In this document: positions 1-53,935 of the stretch, one piece after another
Numbering within the stretch: the stretch's first letter is position 1
How the letters are laid out: each line of letters begins with the position of its first letter
Assembly: GCA_963924555.1 (NCBI GenBank)
Contig: OZ004590.1
Span: forward strand, 1-64,000
Length of the DNA stretch: 64,000 nucleotides
Source: Crambe crambe
Taxonomy: Eukaryota; Porifera; Demospongiae; Poecilosclerida; Crambeidae
Direction: 5' to 3'
Program-made: the position numbers and the translations under genes
Notes under the pieces: generated by a model
Seen by the model: the letters and a program-made list of their open reading frames with translations, nothing else
Told to the model about the DNA's origin: nothing
The model's database searches: none

Positions 1-3000
1 CTAGCCCTAGCCCTAGCCCTAGCCCTAGCCCTAGCCCTAGCCCTAGCCCTAGCCCTAGCCCTAGCCCTAGCCCTAGCCCTAGCCCTAGCCCTAGCCCTAG
101 CCCTAGCCCTAGCCCTAGCCCTAGCCCTAGCCCTAGCCCTAGCCCTAGCCCTAGCCCTAGCCCTAGCCCTAGCCCTAGCCCTAGCCCTAGCCCTAGCCCT
201 AGCCCTAGCCCTAGCCCTAGCCCTAGCCCTAGCCCTAGCCCTAGCCCTAGCCCTAGCCCTAGCCCTAGCCCTAGCCCTAGCCCTAGCCCTAGCCCTAGCC
301 CTAGCCCTAGCCCTAGCCCTAGCCCTAGCCCTAGCCCTAGCCCTAGCCCTAGCCCTAGCCCTAGCCCTAGCCCTAGCCCTAGCCCTAGCCCTAGCCCTAG
401 CCCTAGCCCTAGCCCTAGCCCTAGCCCTAGCCCTAGCCCTAGCCCTAGCCCTAGCCCTAGCCCTAGCCCTAGCCCTAGCCCTAGCCCTAGCCCTAGCCCT
501 AGCCCTAGCCCTAGCCCTAGCCCTAGCCCTAGCCCTAGCCCTAGCCCTAGCCCTAGCCCTAGCCCTAGCCCTAGCCCTAGCCCTAGCCCTAGCCCTAGCC
601 CTAGCCCTAGCCCTAGCCCTAGCCCTAGCCCTAGCCCTAGCCCTAGCCCTAGCCCTAGCCCTAGCCCTAGCCCTAGCCCTAGCCCTAGCCCTAGCCCTAG
701 CCCTAGCCCTAGCCCTAGCCCTAGCCCTAGCCCTAGCCCTAGCCCTAGCCCTAGCCCTAGCCCTAGCCCTAGCCCTAGCCCTAGCCCTAGCCCTAGCCCT
801 AGCCCTAGCCCTAGCCCTAGCCCTAGCCCTAGCCCTAGCCCTAGCCCTAGCCCTAGCCCTAGCCCTAGCCCTAGCCCTAGCCCTAGCCCTAGCCCTAGCC
901 CTAGCCCTAGCCCTAGCCCTAGCCCTAGCCCTAGCCCTAGCCCTAGCCCTAGCCCTAGCCCTAGCCCTAGCCCTAGCCCTAGCCCTAGCCCTAGCCCTAG
1001 CCCTAGCCCTAGCCCTAGCCCTAGCCCTAGCCCTAGCCCTAGCCCTAGCCCTAGCCCTAGCCCTAGCCCTAGCCCTAGCCCTAGCCCTAGCCCTAGCCCT
1101 AGCCCTAGCCCTAGCCCTAGCCCTAGCCCTAGCCCTAGCCCTAGCCCTAGCCCTAGCCCTAGCCCTAGCCCTAGCCCTAGCCCTAGCCCTAGCCCTAGCC
1201 CTAGCCCTAGCCCTAGCCCTAGCCCTAGCCCTAGCCCTAGCCCTAGCCCTAGCCCTAGCCCTAGCCCTAGCCCTAGCCCTAGCCCTAGCCCTAGCCCTAG
1301 CCCTAGCCCTAGCCCTAGCCCTAGCCCTAGCCCTAGCCCTAGCCCTAGCCCTAGCCCTAGCCCTAGCCCTAGCCCTAGCCCTAGCCCTAGCCCTAGCCCT
1401 AGCCCTAGCCCTAGCCCTAGCCCTAGCCCTAGCCCTAGCCCTAGCCCTAGCCCTAGCCCTAGCCCTAGCCCTAGCCCTAGCCCTAGCCCTAGCCCTAGCC
1501 CTAGCCCTAGCCCTAGCCCTAGCCCTAGCCCTAGCCCTAGCCCTAGCCCTAGCCCTAGCCCTAGCCCTAGCCCTAGCCCTAGCCCTAGCCCTAGCCCTAG
1601 CCCTAGCCCTAGCCCTAGCCCTAGCCCTAGCCCTAGCCCTAGCCCTAGCCCTAGCCCTAGCCCTAGCCCTAGCCCTAGCCCTAGCCCTAGCCCTAGCCCT
1701 AGCCCTAGCCCTAGCCCTAGCCCTAGCCCTAGCCCTAGCCCTAGCCCTAGCCCTAGCCCTAGCCCTAGCCCTAGCCCTAGCCCTAGCCCTAGCCCTAGCC
1801 CTAGCCCTAGCCCTAGCCCTAGCCCTAGCCCTAGCCCTAGCCCTAGCCCTAGCCCTAGCCCTAGCCCTAGCCCTAGCCCTAGCCCTAGCCCTAGCCCTAG
1901 CCCTAGCCCTAGCCCTAGCCCTAGCCCTAGCCCTAGCCCTAGCCCTAGCCCTAGCCCTAGCCCTAGCCCTAGCCCTAGCCCTAGCCCTAGCCCTAGCCCT
2001 AGCCCTAGCCCTAGCCCTAGCCCTAGCCCTAGCCCTAGCCCTAGCCCTAGCCCTAGCCCTAGCCCTAGCCCTAGCCCTAGCCCTAGCCCTAGCCCTAGCC
2101 CTAGCCCTAGCCCTAGCCCTAGCCCTAGCCCTAGCCCTAGCCCTAGCCCTAGCCCTAGCCCTAGCCCTAGCCCTAGCCCTAGCCCTAGCCCTAGCCCTAG
2201 CCCTAGCCCTAGCCCTAGCCCTAGCCCTAGCCCTAGCCCTAGCCCTAGCCCTAGCCCTAGCCCTAGCCCTAGCCCTAGCCCTAGCCCTAGCCCTAGCCCT
2301 AGCCCTAGCCCTAGCCCTAGCCCTAGCCCTAGCCCTAGCCCTAGCCCTAGCCCTAGCCCTAGCCCTAGCCCTAGCCCTAGCCCTAGCCCTAGCCCTAGCC
2401 CTAGCCCTAGCCCTAGCCCTAGCCCTAGCCCTAGCCCTAGCCCTAGCCCTAGCCCTAGCCCTAGCCCTAGCCCTAGCCCTAGCCCTAGCCCTAGCCCTAG
2501 CCCTAGCCCTAGCCCTAGCCCTAGCCCTAGCCCTAGCCCTAGCCCTAGCCCTAGCCCTAGCCCTAGCCCTAGCCCTAGCCCTAGCCCTAGCCCTAGCCCT
2601 AGCCCTAGCCCTAGCCCTAGCCCTAGCCCTAGCCCTAGCCCTAGCCCTAGCCCTAGCCCTAGCCCTAGCCCTAGCCCTAGCCCTAGCCCTAGCCCTAGCC
2701 CTAGCCCTAGCCCTAGCCCTAGCCCTAGCCCTAGCCCTAGCCCTAGCCCTAGCCCTAGCCCTAGCCCTAGCCCTAGCCCTAGCCCTAGCCCTAGCCCTAG
2801 CCCTAGCCCTAGCCCTAGCCCTAGCCCTAGCCCTAGCCCTAGCCCTAGCCCTAGCCCTAGCCCTAGCCCTAGCCCTAGCCCTAGCCCTAGCCCTAGCCCT
2901 AGCCCTAGCCCTAGCCCTAGCCCTAGCCCTAGCCCTAGCCCTAGCCCTAGCCCTAGCCCTAGCCCTAGCCCTAGCCCTAGCCCTAGCCCTAGCCCTAGCC

Positions 3001-5475
3001 CTAGCCCTAGCCCTAGCCCTAGCCCTAGCCCTAGCCCTAGCCCTAGCCCTAGCCCTAGCCCTAGCCCTAGCCCTAGCCCTAGCCCTAGCCCTAGCCCTAG
3101 CCCTAGCCCTAGCCCTAGCCCTAGCCCTAGCCCTAGCCCTAGCCCTAGCCCTAGCCCTAGCCCTAGCCCTAGCCCTAGCCCTAGCCCTAGCCCTAGCCCT
3201 AGCCCTAGCCCTAGCCCTAGCCCTAGCCCTAGCCCTAGCCCTAGCCCTAGCCCTAGCCCTAGCCCTAGCCCTAGCCCTAGCCCTAGCCCTAGCCCTAGCC
3301 CTAGCCCTAGCCCTAGCCCTAGCCCTAGCCCTAGCCCTAGCCCTAGCCCTAGCCCTAGCCCTAGCCCTAGCCCTAGCCCTAGCCCTAGCCCTAGCCCTAG
3401 CCCTAGCCCTAGCCCTAGCCCTAGCCCTAGCCCTAGCCCTAGCCCTAGCCCTAGCCCTAGCCCTAGCCCTAGCCCTAGCCCTAGCCCTAGCCCTAGCCCT
3501 AGCCCTAGCCCTAGCCCTAGCCCTAGCCCTAGCCCTAGCCCTAGCCCTAGCCCTAGCCCTAGCCCTAGCCCTAGCCCTAGCCCTAGCCCTAGCCCTAGCC
3601 CTAGCCCTAGCCCTAGCCCTAGCCCTAGCCCTAGCCCTAGCCCTAGCCCTAGCCCTAGCCCTAGCCCTAGCCCTAGCCCTAGCCCTAGCCCTAGCCCTAG
3701 CCCTAGCCCTAGCCCTAGCCCTAGCCCTAGCCCTAGCCCTAGCCCTAGCCCTAGCCCTAGCCCTAGCCCTAGCCCTAGCCCTAGCCCTAGCCCTAGCCCT
3801 AGCCCTAGCCCTAGCCCTAGCCCTAGCCCTAGCCCTAGCCCTAGCCCTAGCCCTAGCCCTAGCCCTAGCCCTAGCCCTAGCCCTAGCCCTAGCCCTAGCC
3901 CTAGCCCTAGCCCTAGCCCTAGCCCTAGCCCTAGCCCTAGCCCTAGCCCTAGCCCTAGCCCTAGCCCTAGCCCTAGCCCTAGCCCTAGCCCTAGCCCTAG
4001 CCCTAGCCCTAGCCCTAGCCCTAGCCCTAGCCCTAGCCCTAGCCCTAGCCCTAGCCCTAGCCCTAGCCCTAGCCCTAGCCCTAGCCCTAGCCCTAGCCCT
4101 AGCCCTAGCCCTAGCCCTAGCCCTAGCCCTAGCCCTAGCCCTAGCCCTAGCCCTAGCCCTAGCCCTAGCCCTAGCCCTAGCCCTAGCCCTAGCCCTAGCC
4201 CTAGCCCTAGCCCTAGCCCTAGCCCTAGCCCTAGCCCTAGCCCTAGCCCTAGCCCTAGCCCTAGCCCTAGCCCTAGCCCTAGCCCTAGCCCTAGCCCTAG
4301 CCCTAGCCCTAGCCCTAGCCCTAGCCCTAGCCCTAGCCCTAGCCCTAGCCCTAGCCCTAGCCCTAGCCCTAGCCCTAGCCCTAGCCCTAGCCCTAGCCCT
4401 AGCCCTAGCCCTAGCCCTAGCCCTAGCCCTAGCCCTAGCCCTAGCCCTAGCCCTAGCCCTAGCCCTAGCCCTAGCCCTAGCCCTAGCCCTAGCCCTAGCC
4501 CTAGCCCTAGCCCTAGCCCTAGCCCTAGCCCTAGCCCTAGCCCTAGCCCTAGCCCTAGCCCTAGCCCTAGCCCTAGCCCTAGCCCTAGCCCTAGCCCTAG
4601 CCCTAGCCCTAGCCCTAGCCCTAGCCCTAGCCCTAGCCCTAGCCCTAGCCCTAGCCCTAGCCCTAGCCCTAGCCCTAGCCCTAGCCCTAGCCCTAGCCCT
4701 AGCCCTAGCCCTAGCCCTAGCCCTAGCCCTAGCCCTAGCCCTAGCCCTAGCCCTAGCCCTAGCCCTAGCCCTAGCCCTAGCCCTAGCCCTAGCCCTAGCC
4801 CTAGCCCTAGCCCTAGCCCTAGCCCTAGCCCTAGCCCTAGCCCTAGCCCTAGCCCTAGCCCTAGCCCTAGCCCTAGCCCTAGCCCTAGCCCTAGCCCTAG
4901 CCCTAGCCCTAGCCCTAGCCCTAGCCCTAGCCCTAGCCCTAGCCCTAGCCCTAGCCCTAGCCCTAGCCCTAGCCCTAGCCCTAGCCCTAGCCCTAGCCCT
5001 AGCCCTAGCCCTAGCCCTAGCCCTAGCCCTAGCCCTAGCCCTAGCCCTAGCCCTAGCCCTAGCCCTAGCCCTAGCCCTAGCCCTAGCCCTAGCCCTAGCC
5101 CTAGCCCTAGCCCTAGCCCTAGCCCTAGCCCTAGCCCTAGCCCTAGCCCTAGCCCTAGCCCTAGCCCTAGCCCTAGCCCTAGCCCTAGCCCTAGCCCTAG
5201 CCCTAGCCCTAGCCCTAGCCCTAGCCCTAGCCCTAGCCCTAGCCCTAGCCCTAGCCCTAGCCCTAGCCCTAGCCCTAGCCCTAGCCCTAGCCCTAGCCCT
5301 AGCCCTAGCCCTAGCCCTAGCCCTAGCCCTAGCCCTAGCCCTAGCCCTAGCCCTAGCCCTAGCCCTAGCCCTAGCCCTAGCCCTAGCCCTAGCCCTAGCC
5401 CTAGCCCTAGCCCTAGCCCTAGCCCTAGCCCTAGCCCTAGCCCTAGCCCTAGCCCTAGCCCTAGCCCTAGCCCTA
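1..5475. repeat. Telomeric array, unit CTAGCC (G-strand CTAGGG)
   Basis: About 912 uninterrupted copies of a 6-bp unit with no visible variant. The C-rich strand reads 5' to 3' inward from position 1, the polarity expected of a left chromosome end. The unit differs from the common animal TTAGGG by one base (CTAGGG). Complete homogeneity over 5.4 kb is consistent with telomerase synthesis from a template of this sequence, though assembly polishing could add to it. Confidence 0.97.
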
Positions 5476-6143
5476 ACCCCCTAACCCTAGCCCTAGCCCT
5501 AGCCCTAGCCCTAGCCCTAGCCCTAGCCCCTAGCCCCTAGCCCTAGCCCTAGCCCTAGCCCTAGCCCTAGCCCTAGCCCTAGCCCTAGCCCTAGCCCTAG
5601 CCCTAGCCCTAGCCCTAGCCCTAGCCCTAGCCCTAGCCCTAGCCCTAGCCCCTAGCCCTAGCCCTAGCCCTAGCCCTAGCCCTAGCCCCTAGCCCTAGCC
5701 CTAGCCCTAGCCCTAGCCCTAGCCCTAGCCCTAGCCCTAGCCCTAGCCCTAGCCCTAGCCCTAGCCCTAGCCCTAGCCCTAGCCCTAGCCCTAGCCCTAG
5801 CCCTAGCCCTAGCCCTAGCCCTAGCCCTAGCCCTAGCCCTAGCCCTAGCCCTAGCCCTAGCCCTAGCCCTAGCCCTAGCCCTAGCCCTAGCCCTAGCCCT
5901 AGCCCTAGCCCTAGCCCTAGCCCTAGCCCTAGCCCTAGCCCTAGCCCTAGCCCTAGCCCTAGCCCTAGCCCTAGCCCTAGCCCTAGCCCTAGCCCTAGCC
6001 CTAGCCCTAGCCCTAGCCCTAGCCCTAGCCCCTAGCCCTAGCCCTAGCCCTAGCCCTAGCCCTAGCCCTAGCCCTAGCCCCTAGCCCTAGCCCTAGCCCC
6101 TAGCCCTAGCCCTAGCCCTAGCCCTAGCCCCTAGCCCTAGCCC
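5476..6143. repeat. Proximal telomere with variant repeats
   Basis: The array continues but is no longer perfect. It begins with CCCTAA-type units around 5473-5487 and then carries scattered 7-bp units (CCCCTAG) near 5527, 5535, 5650, 5693, 6028 and 6075-6140. Variant units at the inner edge of a telomere are usual, because telomerase no longer rewrites that part. The array ends at about 6143, where element copy 1 starts. Confidence 0.93.
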
Positions 6144-6256
6144 CAGATGTTGTCATAACACTGTGAGAAAACCATCCCTGTACACCTAGAAGTGGTCACA
6201 AGACCACACCCACTCTAACTCTTCCCGTACAAACCTAGCCCTTGCTACCAACAAAG

Positions 6257-6566
6257 CCAAGATAACTGTCCAGCCCCAAACACTGGACACTATCACGGCC
6301 GTGTTCGGGTCTGGCCCCAAACACCAGACCAGAACCAAGCACCACACCCAATGAGACATCTCCGACATGGAGAACCACACCCACTGACTAAACACTACAG
6401 ACCCAACTGGCCCAATAAAAACCCCCATTCGTCTCCCTGCTACAAACAAAGCCGAGATAACTGTCCAGCCCCAAACACTGGACACTATCAAGGCTGTGTT
6501 CGGGTCTGGCCCCAAACACCAGACCAGAACCAAGCACCACACCCAATGAGACACCTCCGACACGGA
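6257..6566 (+). repeat. ~193-bp direct duplication with paired hairpins
   Basis: The segment starting near 6257 recurs near 6450. Each copy contains two perfect short hairpins that share a loop resembling CCCCAAACA: stem GTCCAG/CTGGAC and stem GGTCTGG/CCAGACC. The same pair of stems occurs in element copy 2 (near 8006-8070 and 8200-8265), and a GTCCAG/CTGGAC version occurs at about 33979-34000 in copy 3. Confidence 0.75.
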
Positions 6567-6744
6567 GAATTACCAAGCAGACACCCTCTGACAATCCCTA
6601 ACTACCACTTGCAGGATCCCACCTCAACAACAGAGAAAAAGACCCAACAGAGACAGAAAAGAAGCAAGTTCTCCTCCCAACACAAGACCGAGAAAAAGAT
6701 CGTGAAGGCCACACCCACCAGACGGAGCCGAAGCAAAATGCCAA

Positions 6745-6830
6745 TACGTCATTGCCAATACGTCATAGCCGACCAATCAGACTCACCAAACGTTGACCAA
6801 TCAGAACACTCATATAGCTAGGTATATAAG
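6745..6830 (+). promoter_or_regulatory. Promoter-like block: CRE-like, CCAAT and TATA boxes
   Basis: Two TACGTCA sites (6745-6751, 6759-6765; complement TGACGTA) and two GACCAATCAG sites (6771, 6795) precede TATATAAG at 6823-6830, followed by CCACGTG. The order and spacing are typical of a metazoan RNA polymerase II core promoter firing rightwards. The same box set occurs between the two divergent genes at 30.5-30.85 kb. Confidence 0.6.
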
Positions 6831-6862
6831 ACACACACGCCACGTGCTTTATTCATTTCACC

Positions 6863-6898
6863 CTGACGAAGACTAGATCCACTAGTTGAAACGTTGGT
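6863..6898 (+). other. Hammerhead-like core motif (CTGACGA-stem-GAAAC)
   Basis: CTGACGA at 6863-6869 is followed by a 6-bp hairpin (GACTAG/CTAGTT with a G-T closing pair) and GAAAC at 6888-6892. This matches the CUGANGA - stem II - GAAA core of hammerhead ribozymes, and similar motifs occur in the terminal regions of Penelope-like retroelements. I could not place a stem III partner or a cleavage site, so ribozyme activity is not supported; the motif itself is. Confidence 0.45.
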
Positions 6899-7055
6899 GT
6901 TTCTTTTTTCCAAAAAAAAGATTTTTTACCTGCTATATCTCTCTACTCTATTTACAACCGGCTATCGAACTGTGGCAGAGACCACTCTGCTTTGTTTTAT
7001 CAGACGCAGAACTTCATTCACCAGAACTTTCCTACCACCAGACTTACCAAGAACA

Positions 7056-7250
7056 ATGGCAACAAGAACAGCCAAAAAGAACTACCCAAAGAAGAACACA
7101 GGCGTGGGTTCGCTCAACACAAAACTTGATGCACTAGCCCTAGCCCTAGCCCTAGCCCTAGCCCTAGCCCTAGCCCTACCTAAGCCCTTTGGCCATACAA
7201 ACCTAGCCTTGGAGTCAAGAAATCAACACAAGCACATCCCATACACCTAG
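7056..7250 (+). CDS. Short ORF of the subtelomeric element, reading into telomeric repeats
   Basis: ATG at 7056 opens a basic N-terminus (MATRTAKKN..., rich in Lys/Arg/Thr), then the frame enters CCCTAG repeats and encodes alternating Ala-Leu. The first ~26 codons have counterparts in copy 2 (ATG at 8793) and copy 3 (ATG at 34475; shared TGVG motif), so the start region is conserved while the rest is telomere. It is probably the 5' end of a longer coding region cut off by telomere addition. A stable protein is unlikely. Confidence 0.3.
   Translation: MATRTAKKNYPKKNTGVGSLNTKLDALALALALALALALALPKPFGHTNLALESRNQHKHIPYT
7134..7178. repeat. Interstitial telomeric tract (about 7 units)
   Basis: CTAGCC units in the same polarity as the terminal array, placed exactly at the inner end of element copy 1 and before the ~161-bp tandem repeats. 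Confidence 0.9.
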
Positions 7251-7882
7251 ATGTTGTCACAACACTGCGAGAAAACGACCCCTGTACACCTAGAGGTTGT
7301 CACAAGACCACACCCTCTCTAGCTCTTCCCCTGGCCCTAGCTAAGCCCTTTGACCATACAAACCTAGCCTTGAAGTCAAGAAACCAACACAAGTACATCC
7401 CATACACCTAGATGTAGTCACAACACTGTGAGAAAACGACCCCTGTACGCCTAGAGGTGTCACAAGAACACACCCTCTCTAGCTCTTCCCCTGGCCCTAG
7501 CTAAGCCCTTTGGCCATACAAACCTAGCCTCGGAGTCAAGAAATCCACACGAGTACATCCCATACACCTAGATGTTGTCACAACACTGTCAGAAAACGAC
7601 CCCTGTACACCTAGAGGTCGTCACAAGACCACACCCTCTCTAGCTCTTCCCCTGGCCCTAGCTAAGCCCTTTGGCTATACAAACCTAGCCTTAAAGTCAA
7701 GAAATCAACACAAGTACATCACATACACCTAGATGTTGTCACAACACTGTGAGAAAACCACCCCGGCACACCTAGAAGCGGTCACAAGACCACACCCCCT
7801 CTAGTTCTTCCCCTGGCCCTAGCCAAGCCCTTTGGCCATACAAACCTAGCCTTGGAGTCAAGAAATCGACACAAATACATCC
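7179..7882. repeat. ~161-bp subtelomeric tandem repeat, about 4.4 copies
   Basis: Units start near 7181, 7342, 7502, 7663 and 7824 with AAGCCCTTTGG, and include ATACACCTAG and CTAGCTCTTCCCCTGGCCC. Copies differ by scattered substitutions. The last unit is cut short where element copy 2 begins. Phrases such as ATACACCTAG also occur in the ~150-bp repeats at 33.2-33.9 and 53.5-53.9 kb, so these families look related. Confidence 0.9.
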
Positions 7883-8870
7883 AGATGTTGTCATAACACT
7901 GTGAGAAAACCATCCCTGTACACCTAGAAGTGGTCACAAGACCACACCCACTCTAACTCTTCCCGTACAAACCTAACCCTTGCTACCAACAAAGCCAAGA
8001 TAACTGTCCAGCCCCAAACACTGGACACTATCACGGCTGTGTTCGGGTCTGGCCCCAAACACCAGACCAGAACCAAGCACCACACCCAATGAGACATCTC
8101 CGACATGGAGAACCACACCCACTGACTAAACACTACAGACCCAACTGGCCCAATAAAACCCCCCATTCGTCTCCCTGCTACAAACAAAGCCGAGATAACT
8201 GTCCAGCCCCAAACACTGGACACTATCAAGGCTGTGTTCGGGTCTGGCCCCAAACACCAGACCAGAACCAAGCACCACACCCAATGAGACACCTCTGACA
8301 CGGAGAATTACCAAGCAGACACCCTCTGACAATCCCTAACTACCACTTGCAGGATCCCACCCCAACAACAGAGAAAAAGACCCAACAGAGACAGAAAAGA
8401 AGCAAGTTCTCCTCCCAACACAAGACCGAGAAAAAGATCGTGAAGGCCACACCCACCAGACGGAGCCGAAGCCAAATGCCAATACGTCATTGCCAATACG
8501 TCATAGCCGACCAATCAGACTCACCAAACGTTGACCAATCAGAACACTCATATAGCTAGGTATATAAGACACACACGCCACGTGCTTTATTCATTTCACC
8601 CTGACGAAGACTAGATCCACTAGTTGAAACGTTGGTGTTTCTTTTTTCCAAAAAAAGATTTTTTACCTGCTATATCTCTCTACTCTATTTACTACCGGCT
8701 ATCGAACTGTGGCAGAGACCACTCTGCTTTGTTTTATCAGACGCAGAACTTCATTCACCAGAACTTTCCTACCACCAGACTTACCGAGAACAATGGCAAC
8801 AAGAACAGCCAAAAAGAACTACCCAAAGAAGAACACAGGCGTGGGTTCGCTCAACACAAAACTTGATGCA
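7883..8870 (+). mobile_element. Subtelomeric element, copy 2
   Basis: Near-identical to copy 1 with a few substitutions and one fewer A in the A-tract. The paired hairpins, promoter-like block (TACGTCA at 8483 and 8497, GACCAATCAG at 8509 and 8533, TATATAAG at 8561) and CTGACGA/GAAAC motif (8601-8630) are all kept. The short ORF restarts at 8793. It ends at the same base as copy 1 (after TTGATGCA) and again joins telomeric repeats. Confidence 0.6.
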
Positions 8871-8893
8871 CTAGCCCTAGCCCCTAGCCCTAG
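8871..8893. repeat. Interstitial telomeric tract
   Basis: About four CCCTAG units, one of them CCCCTAG, between element copy 2 and the first satellite unit. Same polarity as the chromosome end. Confidence 0.88.
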
Positions 8894-9478
8894 CTATGGA
8901 GTCGGGGATGCCTGAGGTTTTGCCTCACCTAACCTAAAGAAACCTAGGTTCCCTTAGGGCTAAAAATCGCCCCCATGCCGAGAAACCTTGGCCCTTGAGG
9001 GCAAAATCGATCTCGAAAACTAGGGATTTAAAGAAAACTGAAGAAACCTCAGGTTTAACCTGAGGTTAGGTTTCGAGCCTGAGGGCAAACCTGATAAGCA
9101 TGGGGGCCAGGTTCGGTAGCATGAGGGAAATATCCCTAAAGCTACCTTAACCTTGCCCTCATGAGCACCCGGTTATCCCTCGTGGCAACATAACCCGGCC
9201 CTTAGGACTAAAAACTGGTCTTATTTTGAGTTGAGGGATGGGTTTTGATGCCACAGGGGTCAGGTTACCAACCTTGGGGGATAAACTACAATTTTCTTTT
9301 GAGCAAGGCCCTCATGGCATCCCTCATGGATAATATCGAGCCCTAATGGCTAAAAAAACGTCCCTTAGGACTAAAAAAATGCCCTCACGGCTAAATTCGA
9401 GGCCCCCATGGTCGTTTTCGACCAATAATCAAACCTGATCAAACCTGATCAAACCTAGGGGGCCCCAAAAATAGCCAT
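8894..9478. repeat. Head segment of satellite unit A
   Basis: Single-copy within the unit and rich in AACCT, CCTCATGG and CCCTTAGGG words. Its counterpart is 17501-18085 with only a few differences. No coding signal. Confidence 0.8.
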
Positions 9479-17451: not shown

Positions 17452-17500
17452 CCCCTAGCCCTAGCCCTAGCCCTAGCCCTAGCCCTAGCCCTAGCCCTAG
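17452..17500. repeat. Interstitial telomeric tract (about 8 units)
   Basis: CCCTAG units between the tail of unit A and the head of unit B, in the polarity of the chromosome end. Confidence 0.92.
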
Positions 17501-30846: not shown

Positions 30847-31702
30847 ATGGCAGAAGCTCAACCTAAGAGAGCCAAGAGGCAGTGCAGTATCTGCAGCAAT
30901 TGGTACTGCAAGCTAACAGACCACCTCAAGAAGGCCCACAAGTTGGAGACAAAGGAGGAGAGGGAGCCTTATGTAAAGGAGGCTTTCAAGAAGACTCCAG
31001 ATCTGAGGGTTCAGAGTGAGTGTGTGCAATAGAGTAGTCTCTGCTGTTGCTTATCTTAGAATCTTCTTTACAGAGAGACTGGCAGAGGGAAAGACCTGTA
31101 TCACACGCAAGAGAGGAAGAGAGTATGAATGCCCCTACCCACACTGCAAGGGATCCAGCTATGATAGGCTGGCTGACCATCTCTCTTCGGTGCATAACCT
31201 AAAGGGAGAAGAGTGGAAGCCGCTTAGACACAGACTCCTCAATATGGCGCACACTGAGGACTGGAACGACCTGTACAAAGAGGAGGAAGAGATGCTAGAC
31301 TTGCTTCCGAGAAAAGCGGAGGATTTCAAGGGGGAAACAATCTCAATAGACTACCTGAAGGAAGACACAGACCAGACAGCTGAACAACTTGCTCTGCCTC
31401 TTCCGAAATGGGCGAACGAAGAAAATTTAAAAGAGTTACTGGACGGACAGGACCAATCAGACGCAGACTCCATCTTTGGAAGACCTAAGCCAATCAGGCC
31501 GCAGATGGAAGAAATTTTCCCCAACGTGAAGAGGAGGGCAGAAAGAGAAGCAGAGAGAACAGAGAGAGCAAAGAGAGCGGCAGAGAGAGAAAAGAGAGCC
31601 GAGAGAGAAGCAGAAAGGGAAGCAGAGAGAGCAGCAGAAAGGGAGGCAGAGAGATGCAGGGGAAAGAAGAAGAAGAGGAAGAAGAATCCCTTCATTCTTT
31701 GA
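30847..31702 (+). CDS. Two-zinc-finger protein with basic C-terminus
   Basis: Two exons, 30847-31015 and 31074-31702, with a GTGAGT...TTTACAG intron, join in phase to give 265 aa. Finger 1 is C13-C16-H26-H31 and finger 2 is C76-C81-H92-H97 (YECPYPHCKG...HLSSVH). The middle is acidic (YKEEEEMLDLL). From about 220 the protein is a charged Glu-Arg-Ala repeat helix (AEREAER-type), and it ends in KKKKRKKN, a probable nuclear signal. Fingers of this style are often found at the N-terminus of recombinase-like proteins of the neighbouring family, so the divergent pair may function together; that is inference. It is unlikely to be a pseudogene, since both frames and the splice sites are intact. Confidence 0.75.
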
Positions 31703-32650: not shown

Positions 32651-33166
32651 TAAATAACTAACCTCATGGATACTTTACCTCAACCCCTGTTAACGAAACA
32701 AAACCTCATGGCTATTTTACCTCTGGAAACCTCAACCCAGGTTAACGTTGGATAACCTCATGGCTATTTTACCTCTGGAAACCTCAACCCAGGTTAACAA
32801 GACATAACCTCATGGCTATTTTACCTCTGGAAACCTCAACCCAGGTTAACGTTGGATAACCTCATGGCTATTTTACCTCTGGAAACCTCAACCCAGGTTA
32901 ACAAGACATAACCTCATGGCTATTTTACCTCTGGAAACCTCAACCCAGGTTAAAGAAACCTAACCTCATGGATATTTTACCCCTAAATCGAGATAAGATT
33001 TATCCATGAAGTTGAGGTTGACTTAAGGGTAAAATCCTCCAAGTATATGACCATAAGGGGAAAAAAGATTCAAATTTGCGAATTTGAGGGATAAAACACT
33101 CAAGTATATGAATATAAGGGATCATATTTTATATATGAGGGATGGTGAGGGATCCTTCTCCATGCC
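32651..33166. repeat. 52-bp satellite type 2 plus tail (satellite unit D, partial)
   Basis: About six 52-bp units (32660-32950) are followed by the ~190-bp tail. Together with the 140-bp array this is the right-hand end of a satellite unit, lacking the left part. Confidence 0.9.
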
Positions 33167-33178
33167 CCTAGCCCTAGA
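33167..33178. repeat. Interstitial telomeric tract
   Basis: CCCCTAGCCCTAG joins the unit tail to the middle of a ~150-bp repeat unit (AAAACCAAACAAACAGGGCC). Confidence 0.82.
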
Positions 33179-33945
33179 AAACCAAACAAACAGGGCCCTA
33201 TACACCTAGCAATCCGAATAAAGGATCCCTAGCAGTCAGAATACTGCAATATATAGCCCCGAAGATAACCACATCCTCTCTGGTGGCCTTAGCCAAACCC
33301 TTACCTATATGGCTGGTTCTAGGTCCGAAAAACAAAACAAAAAGGACCTTATACACCTAGCAATCTGGATAAAGGACCCCTAGCAGTCCGAATATGACCA
33401 CATAGAGCCCAAAGATTACCACATTCTCTCTGGTGGCCTTAGCCAAACCCTTACCTACATTGCTGGTTCTAGGTCCGAAAACAAAACGAACAGGACCCCA
33501 TACACCTAGCAATCCGAATAAAGGATCCCTAGCAATCCAAATACTACCACACATAGCCCCAAAGATAACCACATCCCCTCTGGCTGCCTTAGCCAAACCC
33601 TTACCCACATTGCTGGTTCTAGGTCCGAAAACCAAACAAACAGGGCCCTATACACCTAGCAATCCGAATAACGGATCCCTAGCAGTCAGAATACTGCCAC
33701 ATAAACCCCCAAGGATAACCACACCCTCTCTGGCGGCCTTAGCCAAACCCTTACAGACATATGCTGGTTCTAGGTCCGAAAACCAAACAAAAAGGGCCCT
33801 ATACACCTAGCAATCCAAATAACGGATCCCTAGCAGTCAGAATACTGCTACATAAACCCCAAAGGATAACCACACCCTCTCTGGCGGCCTTAGCCAAACC
33901 CTTACAGACATATGCTGGTTCTAGGTCAGAAAACCAAACAAGGGA
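33179..33945. repeat. ~150-bp subtelomeric tandem repeat, about 5 copies
   Basis: The landmark CTGGTTCTAGGTCCGAAAA recurs at about 33312, 33462, 33612, 33763 and 33914. Units contain ATACACCTAGCAATCCGAAT and CTTAGCCAAACCC. The family reappears at 53.5-53.9 kb and is related to the ~161-bp repeat at 7.2-7.9 kb. The first unit is cut at the telomeric junction. Confidence 0.9.
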
Positions 33946-34589
33946 AGACCTACACACCAAACACAGACCTCACAAGCTAGTCCAGCACCATACACTGGAC
34001 AGCACTTACGTGGAATCCACCCTGACACCACAATCAGGGCTGACATCCACACACCAACTGTCAGTAACTGTACATGAGCACCAAACTCAGCCAGACTGAC
34101 AAACAAACGGAAACCAACCCCTTAATACTCTCTCCCCCTTTCTTCCACACTTCCATACACCTCTACTACATATGCAGGACCTCCACACTCCAAAGAAACC
34201 AAAGAATCGACCAGAATCCACCCGAGACACACAGAGATCGACGAAGCCACACCCACCCTGACGCTAAGTCGATCACGAGAATGGACAACCAATCAGATCC
34301 ATCCCCGGATTGACCAATCAAAACACTCGCATAGATAGATATAAAAACACACCACGTGTAGTTCTAGAACATTCAGACCTTGATAAAGGACGATCACTAG
34401 TCCGAAACGTCGGCACTTTTTTTCAATCAAAAAATTCTATCCAGCTATTTCCATTCTCTCTATTCAGCAGTAAGATGTCCAAGACAGTCAACAAGAAGAA
34501 GAACCAGACACAGACAGGCGTGGGCGTACTCCAGACCACGACCAGGAGCAAATCCCGCTCTAAACAAGCCAGCCAGACCCCTAACCCAG
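33946..34589 (+). mobile_element. Subtelomeric element, copy 3 (diverged)
   Basis: Keeps the layout of copies 1 and 2: GTCCAG/CTGGAC hairpin near 33980, two CCAATCA boxes (34288, 34312), ATATAAAA at about 34338, CACCACGTG, a degenerate hammerhead-like motif (TTGATAA, stem GGAC/GTCC, GAAAC at 34404-34408) followed by a T-tract, then a small ORF (ATG 34475; MSKTVNKKKNQTQTGVG...) that runs into CCCTAG repeats. Divergence from copies 1-2 is large, so this is an older copy or another subfamily. Confidence 0.5.
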
Positions 34590-34613
34590 CACTAGCCCTA
34601 GCCCTAGCCCTAG
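34590..34613. repeat. Interstitial telomeric tract
   Basis: ACTAGCCCTAGCCCTAGCCC at the inner end of element copy 3, again in terminal polarity. Confidence 0.85.
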
Positions 34614-34675
34614 AGCGTCTGCCCGGATAGCAGGAGGTCTGTGGTTCGAATCCCAGCTGAGACTCAGATTTTTTT
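34611..34675 (+). pseudogene. 3' part of a tRNA or tRNA-derived SINE head
   Basis: TAGAGCGTCTGCC resembles the end of a D-arm. TCTGC/GCAGG forms a 5-bp anticodon stem with a 7-nt loop. AGGTC could be the variable loop, and GTGGTTCGAATCC contains a B-box; the T-stem has one bulged base. It is followed by ATTTTTTTC, a pol III-type terminator. The acceptor and most of the D-arm 5' half are replaced by telomeric repeats, so it cannot be a functional tRNA. Confidence 0.55.
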
Positions 34676-34936
34676 CAGAGAAAAAAAGTCTCGAGCGGCA
34701 ATGATACAGGACAGAGAGACATAGAGCAAAGGTTCCCTGCACCTAGCCCTGCCCTAGCCCACCCCCAGCACTAGCCCTAGCCCATTTTTAAGTCAAAAAA
34801 AGCTATTTTTTCAGTAAATTTTGTTTTTTGGACAGGTTTTTCGGGGCATTGTGTCCCATTTGTGGCCATTTTTGTGTCCCTTTTGTCGTTACGTTAACTT
34901 GAATTGATCTTTGTGAAGAACTGATAGACTCTAGGA
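34676..34936. other. Spacer with degenerate telomere-like repeats
   Basis: A T-tract/A-tract hairpin (34663-34692) is followed by scattered CCCTAGCC words at 34742-34790, then T-rich sequence leading to the death-domain gene. No gene seen. Confidence 0.6.
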
Positions 34937-35888
34937 ATGTTTAGGCTGTGTATGCGCTCACTGAATATAAAACCACGTGAGCTCAAAGAACTCCGTGCAA
35001 AAATAGAGCTTGAGACCTGTCCTCCAAGAGTTCTCTACTCTGTAAATAGTTCTGATCAAGAGAACAGTCAGAGGTTCACTTGTAAGATCACAATCGAAGG
35101 AGCTACTGTAAGTGAAACACAAGATGAGGCTTACTTCACCACTAATGGTATCTTGCCACCATGCACATCTGCTTCTGCAGCTTCAGGAAGTAAGTGTACG
35201 AGTCATATCTATGATTATTATTCCTATACCTCTTTTGTGAAATTTAATACAAGGAATGCACCGTCAAGATGCGATGGATCAATCTGGTTCATCTTTGCGG
35301 TCTTCCTTCTCATCTCATCCAAATCATCCCTCCCCATCTCTGTCCCAGTTGTATTCTGAGCCTCATGGACAACTGATGCAGCAGACACAACACATGTTTC
35401 AACCAAGCACCTCTCAAACTTACATCCAGCAAACACCACCAAGCTATCAAGATGTTTCTGCATACAATGTAGCCCCCTGGCCTCAACAGAACTCTCCAGG
35501 AGCTTACGATTCTCCAACTTCATCTCTGCGGCATCATATTCCACATGCTCTACAAACACAAAACTCCCTTTCCCTTTCACAAAGCAGTAATTCTCCAGAA
35601 CTATCACAGAGTCGTACAGCAGCACCGACACTCAACGAAGCCCTTCGTATTTTGTACCCTATTGCACCCAAGTGGGAGAACCTCGGTGTCTTTCTGGACC
35701 TACCAACAGATGAACTGTCTACTATCAACCACAACTATCGTGACAGAGCACACGACTGTCTGCGTGAGATACTTAAACTCTGGCTGAAACGTGTGACCAT
35801 CTGTCCTACTTGGATCTCTCTGAGAGATGCAGTGGAAGTTATAGATCAGGAAATTGCAAGAACTATTTCACAAAAATATGTAACTTGA
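34937..35888 (+). CDS. Death-domain protein
   Basis: Two exons, 34937-35189 and 35254-35888 (GTAAGT ... TACAAG), join in phase to about 295 aa. The first ~84 residues have no firm match. Residues ~85-200 are low-complexity Ser/Gln/Pro-rich (SYQDV, PHALQTQNS). The last ~90 residues form a death domain: LYPIAPKWENLGVFLDLP, then TINHNYRDRAHDCLREILKLW and SLRDAVEVID, with the usual Trp and amphipathic helices. Death-domain proteins act as adaptors in apoptotic and immune signalling and are greatly expanded in sponges and some other invertebrates. It is the first ordinary gene inward of the subtelomere. The start is the first in-frame ATG; upstream exons cannot be excluded. Confidence 0.75.
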
Positions 35889-43293: not shown

Positions 43294-44630
43294 GGATCAT
43301 CTGACTTATCCGGCACCTCGAATATTAATTAATTTCGCGATGACCTTTGACCTTTCCGCGAACTTGGCGCTAAAAGAGCGGGAATTTCAAGTGTCAGAAA
43401 TGTCTTTGCTTGAACTTGGCCCAATTTTATTTGGGGATATAGAGAAGCTAATTTCATATATGAGGGGGAAGGGGCTTCTTGCTTCAACTTTGACTTGTTC
43501 CAGGTAATTATAATTATACCTGCTGTGTCAAACAATCAATAAACAAACAAAAACAAACAAACAAATTAATTAATTAATTAATTAATTAAGATAAATCAAA
43601 CACATTGATTCTAGATGCAACATAGCCATGCGGGAGATCCCAAGGAGTGATGCAAGAGATAAGTATAGTTGGTGGTGTAGACAATGTAAGGGACGGAAGA
43701 GCATCCGAACAGGTAGCTTCTTCCAAAAGTCCAACAACACTCTGCAACAATGGATGCTGATGTTGTACCTGTGGGCCAGACAGTACCCTGTTACTGATGC
43801 AGCAGAGGAGGCAAAAATGAGCTTGAGAGTGGCCATTGATATTTACCAGTGGTTTCGGGAGGTCTGCACCACCAAACTCCTGCAATCTCCGGTGGTACTT
43901 GGGGGGCCTGGAGTGATAGTCCAGATTGATGAGTCACTGTTTCGGCATAAGCCAAAGGTGTGATGGAATAACAGTAGCTAATATATCAGTATTTATTTTC
44001 ACACTCCCATAGAACCATAGAGGAAGGGCTACCACCCAAGAAGTCTGGGTTTTTGGATTGGTGGATACTTCACATACTCCAGCACTGGGCTTTATGAACA
44101 TAGTAGGTCAGCGTGATGCAGCCACATTGCTACCCATCATACAAGCCCATGTTGCACCTGGGACTATTGTCCATTCAGATCAGTGGGCTGCGTACAACAG
44201 GATAGCTTCACTTCCAAACGTGGCCTCCCACTCTACTGTAAATCACTCGATCACATTCGTCGATCCAGTAACCCACACCCACACTCAAAATGTAGAGTCC
44301 TATTGGAATAGAGTGAAGACAAAGTTAAAGCATATGAAGGGCTGCCATGCTCATCAGGTTCCAAGCTATTTGGACAAATTCATGTGGAGAGAGAGACATG
44401 GCACCACCAAAGCAATGGCTTTTTCAAATATGATGAGGGACATAGCAGCTATTTTCCCTGTATAATTAGTACCCCAACTAAATCAGGCCTTACTTTGATT
44501 CATTGATTCATAAAATAGTCTTGACAATCAAACAGCAAAATCAACACAATCTTGTAGCAGAGGTCAGAGGTCATCGCGAAATGGCGCAAAATTAATTAAT
44601 ATTCGAGGTGCCGGATAAGTCAGATGATCC
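43294..44630 (+). mobile_element. Merlin-type DNA transposon, apparently intact
   Basis: 1337 bp with terminal inverted repeats identical over about 42 bp (starting GGATCATCTGACTTATCCGG) and a more diverged extension containing GCGATGACCT. The flanks are an exact 8-bp duplication CAACTAGC at 43286-43293 and 44631-44638, the size typical of Merlin. It carries a complete three-exon transposase. It sits inside a dispersed repeat whose two halves lie at ~43155-43285 and ~44690-44860. Confidence 0.92.
43400..44465 (+). CDS. Merlin transposase (ISXO2/IS1016-like DDE)
   Basis: Exons 43400-43503, 43615-43957 and 44013-44465 join in phase to 299 aa, ending at TAA. An N-terminal zinc ribbon is formed by C33-x2-C36 and C56-x2-C59 (TCSRC ... 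WWCRQCKG), followed by RKSIRTGSFF. The DDE triad is visible: D140 (VQIDESLF), D205 (VHSDQWAAYN) and E244 (NVESYWNRVK). The length fits the family. It cuts at the terminal repeats and reinserts the element elsewhere in nuclear DNA. Intron 1 contains AAAC and AATT microsatellites. No stop or frameshift was seen, so the enzyme may be functional. The start at 43400 is the first ATG after the left terminal repeat; an upstream frame reads through the repeat but is not expected to be used. Confidence 0.9.
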
Positions 44631-44638: not shown

Positions 44639-47600
44639 TACTTCATCCTTACCTTCTTGAATAAGCCTTCCATATCCTTGAATATCTTTCGATGCAGGTT
44701 TACCATCTTTAGTAGAATAGAGCCTCGACTCACACAAAAACGGCTGAGCCTGCCTGCAGCCCAAAAAGGTTGTAGAAACTGATAGCTGATTTGTGCTTTT
44801 ATGTAAGTGGCAGGCAGCTGCATGCAAGTACTTACCACAGGGCACTACAATCCTACAAAGTGATGTAGAAATCGATCAAGCAATTACTGTATGTAGCCAT
44901 GGGCTTTTTGGTAGATATAATTATTATTGCTAAAGCACCATAGGGCAGGGGTTCTGGCATTATATAATAGGCATACCCACAGACTAAGAATGATTATTAT
45001 TATTATATTTTGGGATGCCACAACCTTCACTATTAAAATTGACATAGTGACATAGTTACAACAAGCCTTCTACTCTGGTGGCATGGATGCTGGCTATGCA
45101 AGATTACATTGGTGGTTGCTGTCACCATTACTGTCACTTTTTAAACTTTACCATCTCATGTTGTTGGCTAATCACAGAAATGGCATAGTAGAGTGAAGGT
45201 CAGCACACTAGCAACCTCAACAGCTCGTTGACTGTTCCCATGAGGTCAACCTCACTCCAAGATAGTGTTGATGAGCTGTATGCTGTTGATAAGACAGTGC
45301 TTTGACTATGAATGGTGCTTTGACAGTGTCGATGCTGTTGATAAGACAGTGGTTTGACTAGAAGCCTCAGTGATAACTGACCATTGTGCTGATTTCTAGC
45401 AAATTGTGTGGATAGTAAACTTATGCCAGTATAGGGCTATGTCACCCATTATAATTATGGGCTTGAGGTAGGTAACCTGCAGGTGGAGCAAACCCACCAG
45501 CATGGATCCCAAGCCACACCACATGGGATATCCATGTTTACCATCTTGCCTACAATATCATGTTGTTGGCTAAATGGCCATCCTAGGCATCCTTGCCATA
45601 GTACAGTGAAGGTCAGCACACTAGCTTCTAACCTAAACAGCTCTCAACAGGTATATAGTTTGGTTGACTGCTCCCATGAAGGTGCAACATTCTTGAGGCT
45701 AGTTGTAGATAGTTCTAGAAGCCCCTGCAGGATTGGGTAATCAATTGATAACTGACCAGTGTTTTGAGACTACTACAACTAAAGCAGCTGCAGGCTGCCA
45801 ACTGATTTCTAGAAAACCATGTGGATAGTAAACTTTCCTGCTACATTTCATACTTGGTTTGGAGTGTATGGAAATGTGAACGAACAAGTCTGTAGTATCT
45901 TAATATGGGAACAGACAAACTGACAGAATAACACAGAGAGAGGAATTGGTATAGTTCAGAGAAGGGAGGGGGCTTGGCCACTTTAGTGGACTGAATGGCG
46001 AATCAAAACCACCTCTATGGCATTTTACTCTCTGGGGTTAACGTTATCTGAACCGAGCTTAGACTAACACCTGGCTCGAGGTCAAAGGTATCCTGATTCG
46101 TAATCGGCTTAGAAAGGTGTAGATGCAATATGTGTAGCCAATAGCATATCACTCCCCAAAGGGTGTTCAATGCCACTCTGATGGGGTCCATTGTATTTGA
46201 ATAGCCACGTGAATATCGAAATCCCATTCAAGCACTTTTTGAATTTTAATACACCTCGTGGGTGAAGTAGTTTGGTAATTATGGGTGTGATAATTGAAAT
46301 TCAGGATGAGATTGTTAAACTTGAGCTCTACATTTGGACTGACCTGTGGGGCATCATTATAATTGTGAGCTAGAGCAAAAATGGAATTAATGTGTGGCCT
46401 GAATGTGGGCTTGAGCTAGGTAACCTGCAGGTGGAGCAAACCCACCAGCATGGATCCCAACAAGTTCTTACCATATCTGTGTTGTTGGCTAATCACAGAA
46501 ATGGTCCTGGCAGTGAAGGTCAGCACACTAGGACCTCAACAGCTCGTCAACAGGTGGTTGACTGTTCCCATGAGGTCAACATAGTGTTGATGCTGTTGAT
46601 AAGACAGTGCTTTGACTAGAAGCTGCAGGGTTGGTATGGAAATATGACTGATATCGCTTTAGTGGCAAATGAAAACCACCTCTGTGGCACTTTACCCTGT
46701 GGGGTTAATGCTTAGAACAACACCTGGCTGTACCATGGCATGCAGTCCCTAGCCCTAGCCCTAGCCCTATCCTATCCTGATTCTGATTCGTAATCCTCTT
46801 AGATGCAATATGGGTAGCCAATAGCATATCATCTGGGCCCATTGTATTTTAATAGCCACATGAATATCGAAATCCTTTAATGTGGCTAACAATTCTTTGA
46901 TGTGAATTTTAATACACCTCGTGGTGAAGTAGTTTTTATCTTGCTTTACATTTGGACAACCGACTTGCAGACGAGAGGTGACCTGTGGTAACCACTATCC
47001 GGCCTTTCTGCTGAGCATAAAATCAGTGAAATAACGTGGCCTGAACCCATGTCACCCATTAATAATCCTTCTGTGGCTCAAATGTACACTGCCCTAGTTA
47101 TCGTAGCATAAATTGCTTTTTAAAGAAAAGCAGCAATAATATTTACCACCACCAATTATGCACACATGGGCAAGAACTTTATCAAAATAACATGGCCTGA
47201 ACTCGTCCATCGTGTCACCGATATTCCATCCATGCTGGTCAATAAGTTTTATATGTAAGTGGCAGGCAGCTGATGCTTCCCTCAAAGTACAAGCCTTGAG
47301 CCTGCTGCCCAAAAGGCTGTAGAAACTGATAGTTGATTTGTGCCTTGCCGTTGAGTTAAATACTTACCACAAAGCACTTGGATATGTCTAGTGCCTACAG
47401 CATGCTAGCATATTAAAATATATATAATAGGCATCGTTAATTTTCGAGAATTTTTGGTGATTTTTGCTCGTTAATCTTTATCCCTCAGCCAGCAAGGTCA
47501 CATGGACCAATCAGATTCGTGCTGACATCATTGCCTGCAAATCTGATTGGTCCATGTGACCTCGGTGGCTAGTATAGTGTCGAGCACTGTATGTCTATGC

Positions 47601-53504: not shown

Positions 53505-53935
53505 AACGAGGATGCCCTATACACCTAGCAATCCGAATAAAGGACAACTAGCCCTCAAAATACCATCACATGTACACCCCATTTAGGATAACCACACCCT
53601 CTGGCGACCTTAGCCAAACCCTCACAGATATATGCTGGTTCTAGGTCCGAAAAACAAACAACAAGAGGCCCCATACACCTAGCAATCCGAACAAAGGACA
53701 ACTAGAGGCCCTATACACCTAGCAATCCGAATAACAGGCAACTAGCTCTCAGAATAACCACACCCTCTGGCGGCCTTAGCCAAACCCTCACAGATATATG
53801 CTGGTTCTAGGTCCGAAAAAACAACGACGAGAGGCCCCATACACCTAGAAATCCAAATAAAGGACAACTAGAGGCCCTATACACCTAGCAATCCGAACAG
53901 ACAACTAGCCCTCAAAATACCATCACAATGCTCCT
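53505..53935. repeat. Island of the ~150-bp subtelomeric repeat
   Basis: Degenerate units with ATACACCTAGCAATCCGAAT, CTTAGCCAAACCCTCACAG and ATGCTGGTTCTAGGTCCGAA, the same family as 33179-33945, about 20 kb further inward. It is followed by a C-rich stretch (CCTCCCACCCCCACCCCC) at 53932-53955 and a CT-rich stretch to 54000. Confidence 0.85.

Follow-up and report, generated by a model that had tools for sequence, protein, structure and literature searches.

Leaders of a Penelope-like element joined to telomere repeats at a defined internal site in the sponge Crambe crambe

Introduction

The stretch of DNA analysed here (64,000 nucleotides of the sponge Crambe crambe, contig OZ004590.1 of assembly GCA_963924555.1, positions 1 to 64,000 of the forward strand; hereafter the window) forms the left end of contig C13, and opens with a terminal telomere tract, (CCCTAG)n, at 1..6144. 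Beneath this tract lie two near-identical units of about 1 kb, each of which carries a promoter-like block, a hammerhead-like motif and the start of an open reading frame (ORF), and each of which passes on its 3' side into telomere repeats again. The locus thus raises the question of what these units are, and of how they came to be joined to the telomere. A reading made from the sequence alone (the sequence-only reading) had proposed a telomere-attached retroelement of the Athena type of Penelope elements. Searches were performed on the 143-Mb assembly (119 contigs), and all results concern this single genome. The best reading, which we consider probable, is that the units are leaders of a Penelope-like element (PLE) encoding a reverse transcriptase (RT) with a GIY-YIG-like domain, and that reverse transcription of this element would start internally, at a site matching the telomere repeat, on eroded chromosome ends.

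Leader copies in the window

The features described in this section, the terminal tract included, are all on the + strand. Copy 1 (6145..7133) is 99% identical to the leader of a complete element found on contig C9, and is read as a 5'-truncated leader, composed of the core of a pseudo-long terminal repeat (pLTR) and a tail, whose truncated end is capped by the terminal tract. Copy 2 comprises a leader core and tail at 7883..8870, with its hammerhead at 8596-8637. The near-identity claimed in the sequence-only reading is borne out, 980 of the 988 positions aligned by BLAST being identical, with a single internal 1-base gap. Each copy contains two CCAATCA boxes, two TGACGTA/TACGTCA sites, TATATAAG, a CTGACGA...GAAAC motif and an ATG (7056 and 8793, respectively), and both end in GATGCA followed by CTAGCC repeats. 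The promoter-like block of copy 1 (6773..6830; CCAATCA at 6773 and 6797, TATATAAG at 6823) is a motif match only.

The tail end of copy 1, GCACTAGCCC, and the 43-bp residual telomere tract under this copy (7134-7176) together occupy 7131..7176, and the same tract caps the truncated 5' end of the copy 2 leader, whose 5' part is made of 161-bp subrepeats (7177..7882). As positions 7158-7877 are colinear with the complete element at 97.9% identity, these subrepeats belong to copy 2, which is thus longer than the unit first delimited. Under copy 2 a residual tract of 24 bp (8871..8894) is followed by subtelomeric sequence. In the window the tail end GCACTAGCCC is found at 4 places, where 0.24 would be expected and no more than 2 were reached in any of 100 shuffles.

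A third, diverged copy, hereafter assigned to family B, had also been reported; it is real, its parts follow one another as in copies 1 and 2 (two CCAATCA, TATAAAAACA, a hammerhead-like motif, ATG and GCACTAGCCCTAG), and its divergence is such that BLAST aligns just 48 bp at 83% identity. The proposed span, 33946-34613, covers the leader core and tail (TATA at 34340, ATG at 34475, tail GCACTAGCCCTAG at 34589, and an end of about four CTAGCC units). It is too short, because an array of family-B subrepeats of about 150 bp each (33178..33945) precedes the core as the 5' part of the diverged leader, and the full span is approximately 33178-34613. Two telomere-like units (33165..33177) lie ahead of it.

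Other traces of this family were seen in the window. A 20-base remnant resembling the family-B tail (34764-34783, with GCACTAGCCC at 34768) is possibly an extremely truncated insertion, and decayed family-B subrepeats at 53514-53897 (76-83% identity in the longer matches) represent an older leader remnant. A tRNA-like stretch (GGTTCGAATCC, 34611-34660) follows the family-B copy and recurs at C3:293687, 294137 and 294476; it is perhaps a short interspersed nuclear element.

The complete element

Copy 1 used as a genome query gave at least 83 matches, 11 of them near-complete at 99-100% identity. Nine of these are found no more than about 27 kb from an end of a large contig (two on C13, one on C10, one on C20, one on C3 at 5.5 kb and four on C9), one is on the small contig C47, and one is located 128 kb inside C3. 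The four C9 copies are spaced by exactly 5561 bp, and represent tandem units near another chromosome end. In this array the frame continues beyond GATGCACTAGCCCTAGACGG as ORF1, followed by an overlapping ORF2 of 904 codons (stop to stop), so that the 1-kb unit was indeed found joined to a reverse-transcriptase ORF, and full-length versions run into a reverse transcriptase instead of continuing as a normal host gene. In 5' to 3' order the element consists of 161-bp subrepeats, the promoter block, the hammerhead, ORF1, and ORF2 with reverse transcriptase and GIY-YIG-like domain. The same 161-bp repeats closely follow ORF2 in the C9 array, and are for this reason assigned to the 5' part of the leader. 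The leader takes in 26 codons of ORF1; the 'short basic ORF' of the sequence-only reading is present in copy 1 (7056..7133, + strand, MATRTAKKNYPKKNTGVGSLNTKLDA) as the first part of this longer ORF1, ended early by the telomere junction.

Three open copies of ORF2 are present on C9, identical over the 903 residues compared (the query being one of the three). The reverse transcriptase domain was detected with the RVT_1 model (38.6 bits, cut-off 29.6), and ORF2 shares with other RTs of the genome YIDD and ADKG blocks, which we take to be marks of PLEs. No PLE-specific model matched in the Pfam and NCBIfam scans. The C-terminal block of the C9 protein has the layout of a GIY-YIG domain (VVY...YVG...R...E in order, read on what we assume to be the GIY-YIG family positions), and the Pfam GIY-YIG cut-off is exceeded by a C3 relative with 76% identity across ORF2 residues 810-903 (23.7 and 24.6 bits vs 22.6). 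The RT protein of the element thus appears to carry a GIY-YIG-like endonuclease domain. Comparison of ORF2 with solved structures gave 0 matches at E 0.01, and a profile of six ORF2 sequences gave five weak matches (best E 0.19), to four reverse transcriptases and one kinase.

The anatomy of PLEs includes tandem units, a pLTR with promoter, hammerhead and ORF start, and a 'tail' that covers more of the ORF (PMC11167929, PMC3846280). By anatomy and domains the element is a Penelope-like element; since the complete element has tandem units, a pLTR and a tail reaching into the ORF, the units of the window are considered as copies of its leader. The sequence-only reading was therefore right in seeing a retroelement, of which the window holds leader pieces and not whole elements.

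Break point within ORF1

For family A, to which copies 1 and 2 belong, tails were counted on the 21 matches that reach query position 970 or beyond (fragments ending upstream, e.g. L031 and L033, are outside this count). Thirteen end at the tail (e1, e2, those on C47, C10 and C20, those on C3 at 5.5 kb and 128 kb, two on C9, L020, L023, L029 and L030), and eight run on into ORF1 (three on C9, L021, L024, L025, L028 and L032). The junction is GATGCA/CTAGCCC in 12 of the 13 ending copies, and is off by one base in L023 (GATGC/CCTAGCCC). The defined 3' end suspected from copies 1 and 2 is thereby extended to these 13 copies, with no scatter of junctions among family-A copies reaching the tail.

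The break site is base 79 of ORF1 (7056 to 7134), where the element has an internal CTAGCCC(T). In the complete element the break point is internal, so that the 3' end of the copies is internal to the element. Among the eight family-A copies that continue into ORF1, six have at the break site CTAGCCCT, i.e. eight bases of the telomeric C-strand of the host, of which CTAGCCCTAG in the C9 copies is a longer version. For family B, which gave 31 matches, tails were read at 16 places, namely one in the window, 13 in other stretches and two within L029. CTAGCCC units terminate 7 of them, coding sequence continues in 4, the break comes earlier in 2, the reading is ambiguous in 2 (L091, L093), and the tail has been lost in 1 (L086).

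Leaders at chromosome ends

The succession of leader, telomere repeats and subtelomere was found at C13 (twice), C10, C3/C47, C9 and C20, so that the 3' junctions into telomere repeats, first noticed in the window, recur at these five placed chromosome ends; the subtelomere differs between most of them. C3 and C47 are probably one end seen twice. The residual tracts under the leaders measure 43, 24, 43, 144/146, 58, 58 and 61 bp (range 24-146), the outer tract being of 6143 bp at C13; at the other ends, 0.9-1.4 kb of it falls within the flanks examined. In the inner C3 copy (C3:128548), a 7-bp residual tract is followed by the same subtelomeric sequence that C20 has after 61 bp.

The 5' truncations of the telomere-capped copies vary on one colinear leader: relative to the query start they lie at 0, -706, -150, -113, -622 and -373 bp, and the inner C9 copy is cut at query position 674. 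Among the 11 near-complete copies, 20 of the 28 variable columns are singletons; the shared variants are three sites in e1 and e2, a 4-base insertion in the C9 copies, and one site common to the C9 copies and C10. The differing truncations, short residual tracts and singletons are consistent with leaders that were attached time and again to short ends and then capped. A telomerase is apparently encoded in the genome, two matches to the telomerase RNA-binding domain having been obtained (57.9 and 34.6 bits, cut-off 25).

Internal insertions

At locus L029 (C5:5500576-5501237, C5:5.50 Mb), three short leader inserts are flanked by copies of a single target about 54-59 bp in length. As these inserts sit internally with long target duplications, the element can use non-telomeric sites. 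The family-A insert extends from about CATATCACC to GATGCACTAGCCC, and in the relative L021 CATATCACC sits 31 bases past the start of the TATA box; this insert looks like the copy of a transcript from start to tail, uncut by the hammerhead. The middle insert of L029 is chimeric: it starts as family A and its body is of family B, as if by template switching at the hammerhead.

Locus L020 on C3 ends in three CTAGCCC units, and such units are absent at this place from a relative that matches its 3' flank at 92% identity. The genome search gave no contiguous empty site for L020, relatives of the two flanks lying apart. The extra units could result from stuttering, from an RNA already holding telomere repeats, or from a lost target. 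In L083, irregular repeats of CCCAGCACTAGCCCTA are found. Diverged copies of families A and B also form internal clusters (C3:0.2-3.9 Mb, C16:4.28-4.65 Mb, C5:5.2-5.5 Mb), which are perhaps former ends or pericentromeric regions.

Hammerhead

In copy 1 the hammerhead (6858..6899, + strand) is of type I, with stem I CACC/GGTG, core CTGACGA, stem II GACTAG/CTAGTT, and GAAACGTT preceding the predicted cut. The core CUGANGA...GAAA with three stems is present, stem III being just the palindrome ACGU; small Penelope hammerheads with such a stem III are said by Luense and colleagues (about 2017) to act as dimers. The family-B unit has a variant (34376..34413, + strand) with a TTGATAA core, stem II GGAC/GTCC, GAAACGTC, and a weak stem I (2 of 5 positions paired).

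Covariation was examined on the 15 distinct sequences among the loci at hand, using a pattern that allowed C/T at position 3 and A/G at position 8. Stem I is paired in 56 of 60 cells (shuffle mean 43.5; 0 of 5000 shuffles reach it) and stem II in 60 of 60 (reached by 3 of 5000 shuffles), these shuffle tests being inflated by kinship among the sequences. Positions 3 and 8 form a Watson-Crick pair in 15 of 15 sequences, C-G in 7 and U-A in 8. This switch across related leaders, from C3-G8 to U3-A8, is natural evidence of selection on the hammerhead, which is supported by covariation, cleavage being predicted. U3-A8 hammerheads occur naturally and are active (PMC3088659).

Genome-wide, the C3 form gave 241 matches vs 7 for the reversed pattern, with G8 in all of the 100 matches listed; the U3 form gave 23 matches (A8 in 19, G8 in 4) vs 16 for the reversed pattern, so that its count alone is not clearly above background. 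No Rfam match was obtained in the window at gathering thresholds, and a permissive scan (up to E 10) of 6780-7000 gave nine chance-like matches and no hammerhead. Folding of the 300-nt leader end gave a z of -1.14, with 26 of 200 shuffles folding equally well. The motif seen by the sequence-only reading is upheld by the covariation of its stems and of pair 3-8. A chance look-alike of promoter and hammerhead was considered as a separate candidate and rejected. As a side observation, 97 of the 100 listed C3-form matches belong to other families (e.g. CTGATGAAGGCTAGAGTATTCTGGTC, CTGAGGAAGGCCTGAGCACCAGGCC), and several occur as close opposite-strand pairs.

Proposed mechanism and rival explanations

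The proposal starts from what the sequence shows, namely the element with its ORFs and break point, the caps and the short residual tracts; priming from the G-rich overhang is what this anatomy would suggest. The transcript would start just 5' of the hammerhead, or read through a tandem unit, and the element protein would bind the start of ORF1. The CUAGCCCU stretch would then adjoin or pair with the G-strand of an eroded telomere at its 3' end (GGGCTAG-3'), and reverse transcription would begin at CUAGCCCU, not at the 3' end of the RNA, and proceed toward its 5' end. The incomplete 5' end would subsequently be capped by the host telomerase, and repeated rounds would pile leaders outward (from 8870 to 7177, then from 7133 to 6145). 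Non-telomeric insertions would presumably rely on the endonuclease. The orientation of the copies is as expected for priming from the G-strand end, as had been pointed out. Telomerase healing at the 3' side of the element was rejected as an alternative origin of the junction: it would give CTAGGG, not CCCTAG, on the element sense strand.

A bolder version, which we put forward only tentatively, is that the internal initiation site now serves as a telomerase-like template, CUAGCCCU(AG) in the mRNA being aligned with the G-strand of critically short telomeres, that the RT, which is related to telomerase, would begin at this template and may stutter extra telomere units at non-telomeric sites, and that the element would provide a back-up end healing alongside the host telomerase. 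The three CTAGCCC units of L020 and the CCCAGCACTAGCCCTA repeats of L083 are hints of such stuttering.

Several observations weigh against initiation at a telomere-matching site on eroded ends by a protein of this kind. The Pfam GIY-YIG model has no match to the C9 protein (peptide searched up to E 5; same place in the genome scan), and a stop codon lies inside the stronger, 57.9-bit telomerase match. The telomere match at the break site is altered in L024 and missing in L025, which both continue into ORF1; CTAGCCCT is kept in just 2 of the 4 family-B copies that continue (L090, L092), and 2 of the 16 family-B tails break before CTAGCCC (L088 and the second insert in L029). The tails of five copies fold no better than shuffles (z from -0.88 to 0.92), and thus give no sign of an initiation structure. 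Copies located inside chromosomes also exist, so that the element is not confined to ends. The 5' truncation points could stem from terminal erosion and healing. Finally, the telomeric copies are 99% alike, and the C3 copy at 128 kb and the C20 copy have a common flank, ATGCCCTAGGAAAAATTT; because of this likeness and of such common subtelomeric neighbours, recombination could have spread one old junction.

This last point leads to the main rival, in which a single telomeric insertion took place, its leader and junction were spread between ends by break-induced replication or unequal exchange, and erosion and telomerase healing then followed at different points. Besides the near-identity of the copies, the shared sites (three between e1 and e2, one between C10 and C9, and the C9 4-base insertion) are in its favour, as is the fact that the subtelomere blocks of the window are themselves duplicated, with telomere remnants between them (17452-17500, 33165-33177). 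However, diverged family-A copies and family B show this break point too, also at internal sites whose flanks are unrelated, one of these sites having long flanking duplications, and the flanks and residual tract lengths are unlike between most ends. We regard this explanation as rather unlikely, while giving it more weight than any other rival.

Elements of the SART/TRAS type insert into the telomeric repeats of silkworm. By analogy, an endonuclease could cut inside the telomeric repeats and the element insert there, in which case the outer tract would be what remains of the target instead of a new cap. The GIY-YIG-like domain and the presence of telomere repeats on both sides of the leaders agree with this, but inner tracts of at most 146 bp beside an outer tract of 6143 bp are not expected for random insertion in a full telomere (later inner shrinkage is possible), and the existence of non-telomeric insertions is against an element that cuts telomeres; this explanation is accordingly judged improbable. 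That the units are a host gene, or an ordinary satellite lying by chance beside telomere repeats, would agree with the lack of any match to the ORF2 protein of the element inside the 64-kb window, but is contradicted by the complete copies, in which the leader continues into a reverse transcriptase, and by the dispersal of diverged copies, and is hardly credible.

Other features of the window

The region 8894-33177 consists of duplicated subtelomere blocks split by an interstitial telomere tract (17452-17500), with a further remnant at 33165-33177, as a layered record of past chromosome ends. A short interstitial telomere-like tract is found at 46747-46764, with no leader in the preceding 450 bases. 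Other domain matches in the window are an ISXO2-like transposase (44013-44462, 70.8 bits), a Death domain (35241-35885, 24.1 bits) and an INCENP ARK-binding-like domain (31007-31699, 39.8 bits).

Comparison with known elements

The Athena/Terminon elements of bdelloid rotifers are described as endonuclease-deficient PLEs that are attached to telomeres, with 5' ends truncated by telomere repeats, head-to-tail arrays, a hammerhead, and a short stretch of reverse-complement telomere sequence presumed to pair with the G-rich overhang (PMC6431247, PMC12477314, PMC3846280). The capped, truncated 5' end and the centromere-side 3' end in telomere repeats are found here as well. Terminons can carry GIY-YIG-like endonucleases among their accessory functions, and PLEs had been known either with one ORF encoding RT and endonuclease, or with two ORFs and no endonuclease (PMC6431247); the Crambe element combines two ORFs with the GIY-YIG-like domain. 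Unlike in Athena/Terminon, the GIY-YIG-like domain here is at the end of the RT protein, the element also inserts internally, and the telomere stretch (7134) lies inside ORF1, about 235 bases downstream of the hammerhead (which ends at 6899), whereas theirs is described immediately beside the hammerhead. Because of the domain in the RT protein and of the position of the telomere stretch, the element is placed outside Athena/Terminon; of the original assignment, the telomere-attached Penelope-like element stands and the Athena type does not. If the reading favoured here is right, the element behaves at chromosome ends like the telomeric PLE group.

Internal initiation close to where the ORF starts, together with a matching genomic tail, has a precedent in Poseidon PAc of Anolis, a canonical endonuclease-containing PLE whose measured initiation site lies 111-118 bases into its ORF, where the genomic tail ends (PMC11167929). 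In PAc, as that source describes it, the initiation site has no homology to the AT-rich DNA that is cleaved, and a single ORF is present, whereas here the corresponding site matches the telomere repeat and two ORFs are present. What is new is the sequence of the break site, which matches the telomeric C-strand of the host. The endonuclease-containing Penelope families of Adineta vaga are similar in their pLTR including the first ORF codons, their optional tail and their target duplications, but these duplications are of 9 bp vs about 54-59 bp in L029, and no telomere association is described in the parts of that source covering them (PMC3846280). Telomeric PLEs of Mycosphaerella graminicola likewise have 3' ends with telomere repeats and point away from the telomere; the subtype in question is described without an endonuclease (PMC4522978). 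The literature search gave nothing relevant on a CTAGGG telomere, and no report was found of a telomere-attached PLE with an endonuclease in its RT protein; as this search missed several founding papers, absence from print is not established.

In the portions of the literature covered, telomere attachment has so far been described for endonuclease-deficient PLEs. If the reading favoured here is true, the cut-and-prime and end-prime modes need not exclude each other, and the 'tail' of ordinary Penelope elements would be tied to telomere attachment. The element would then offer a natural system for testing the choice of start site by a telomerase-related reverse transcriptase.

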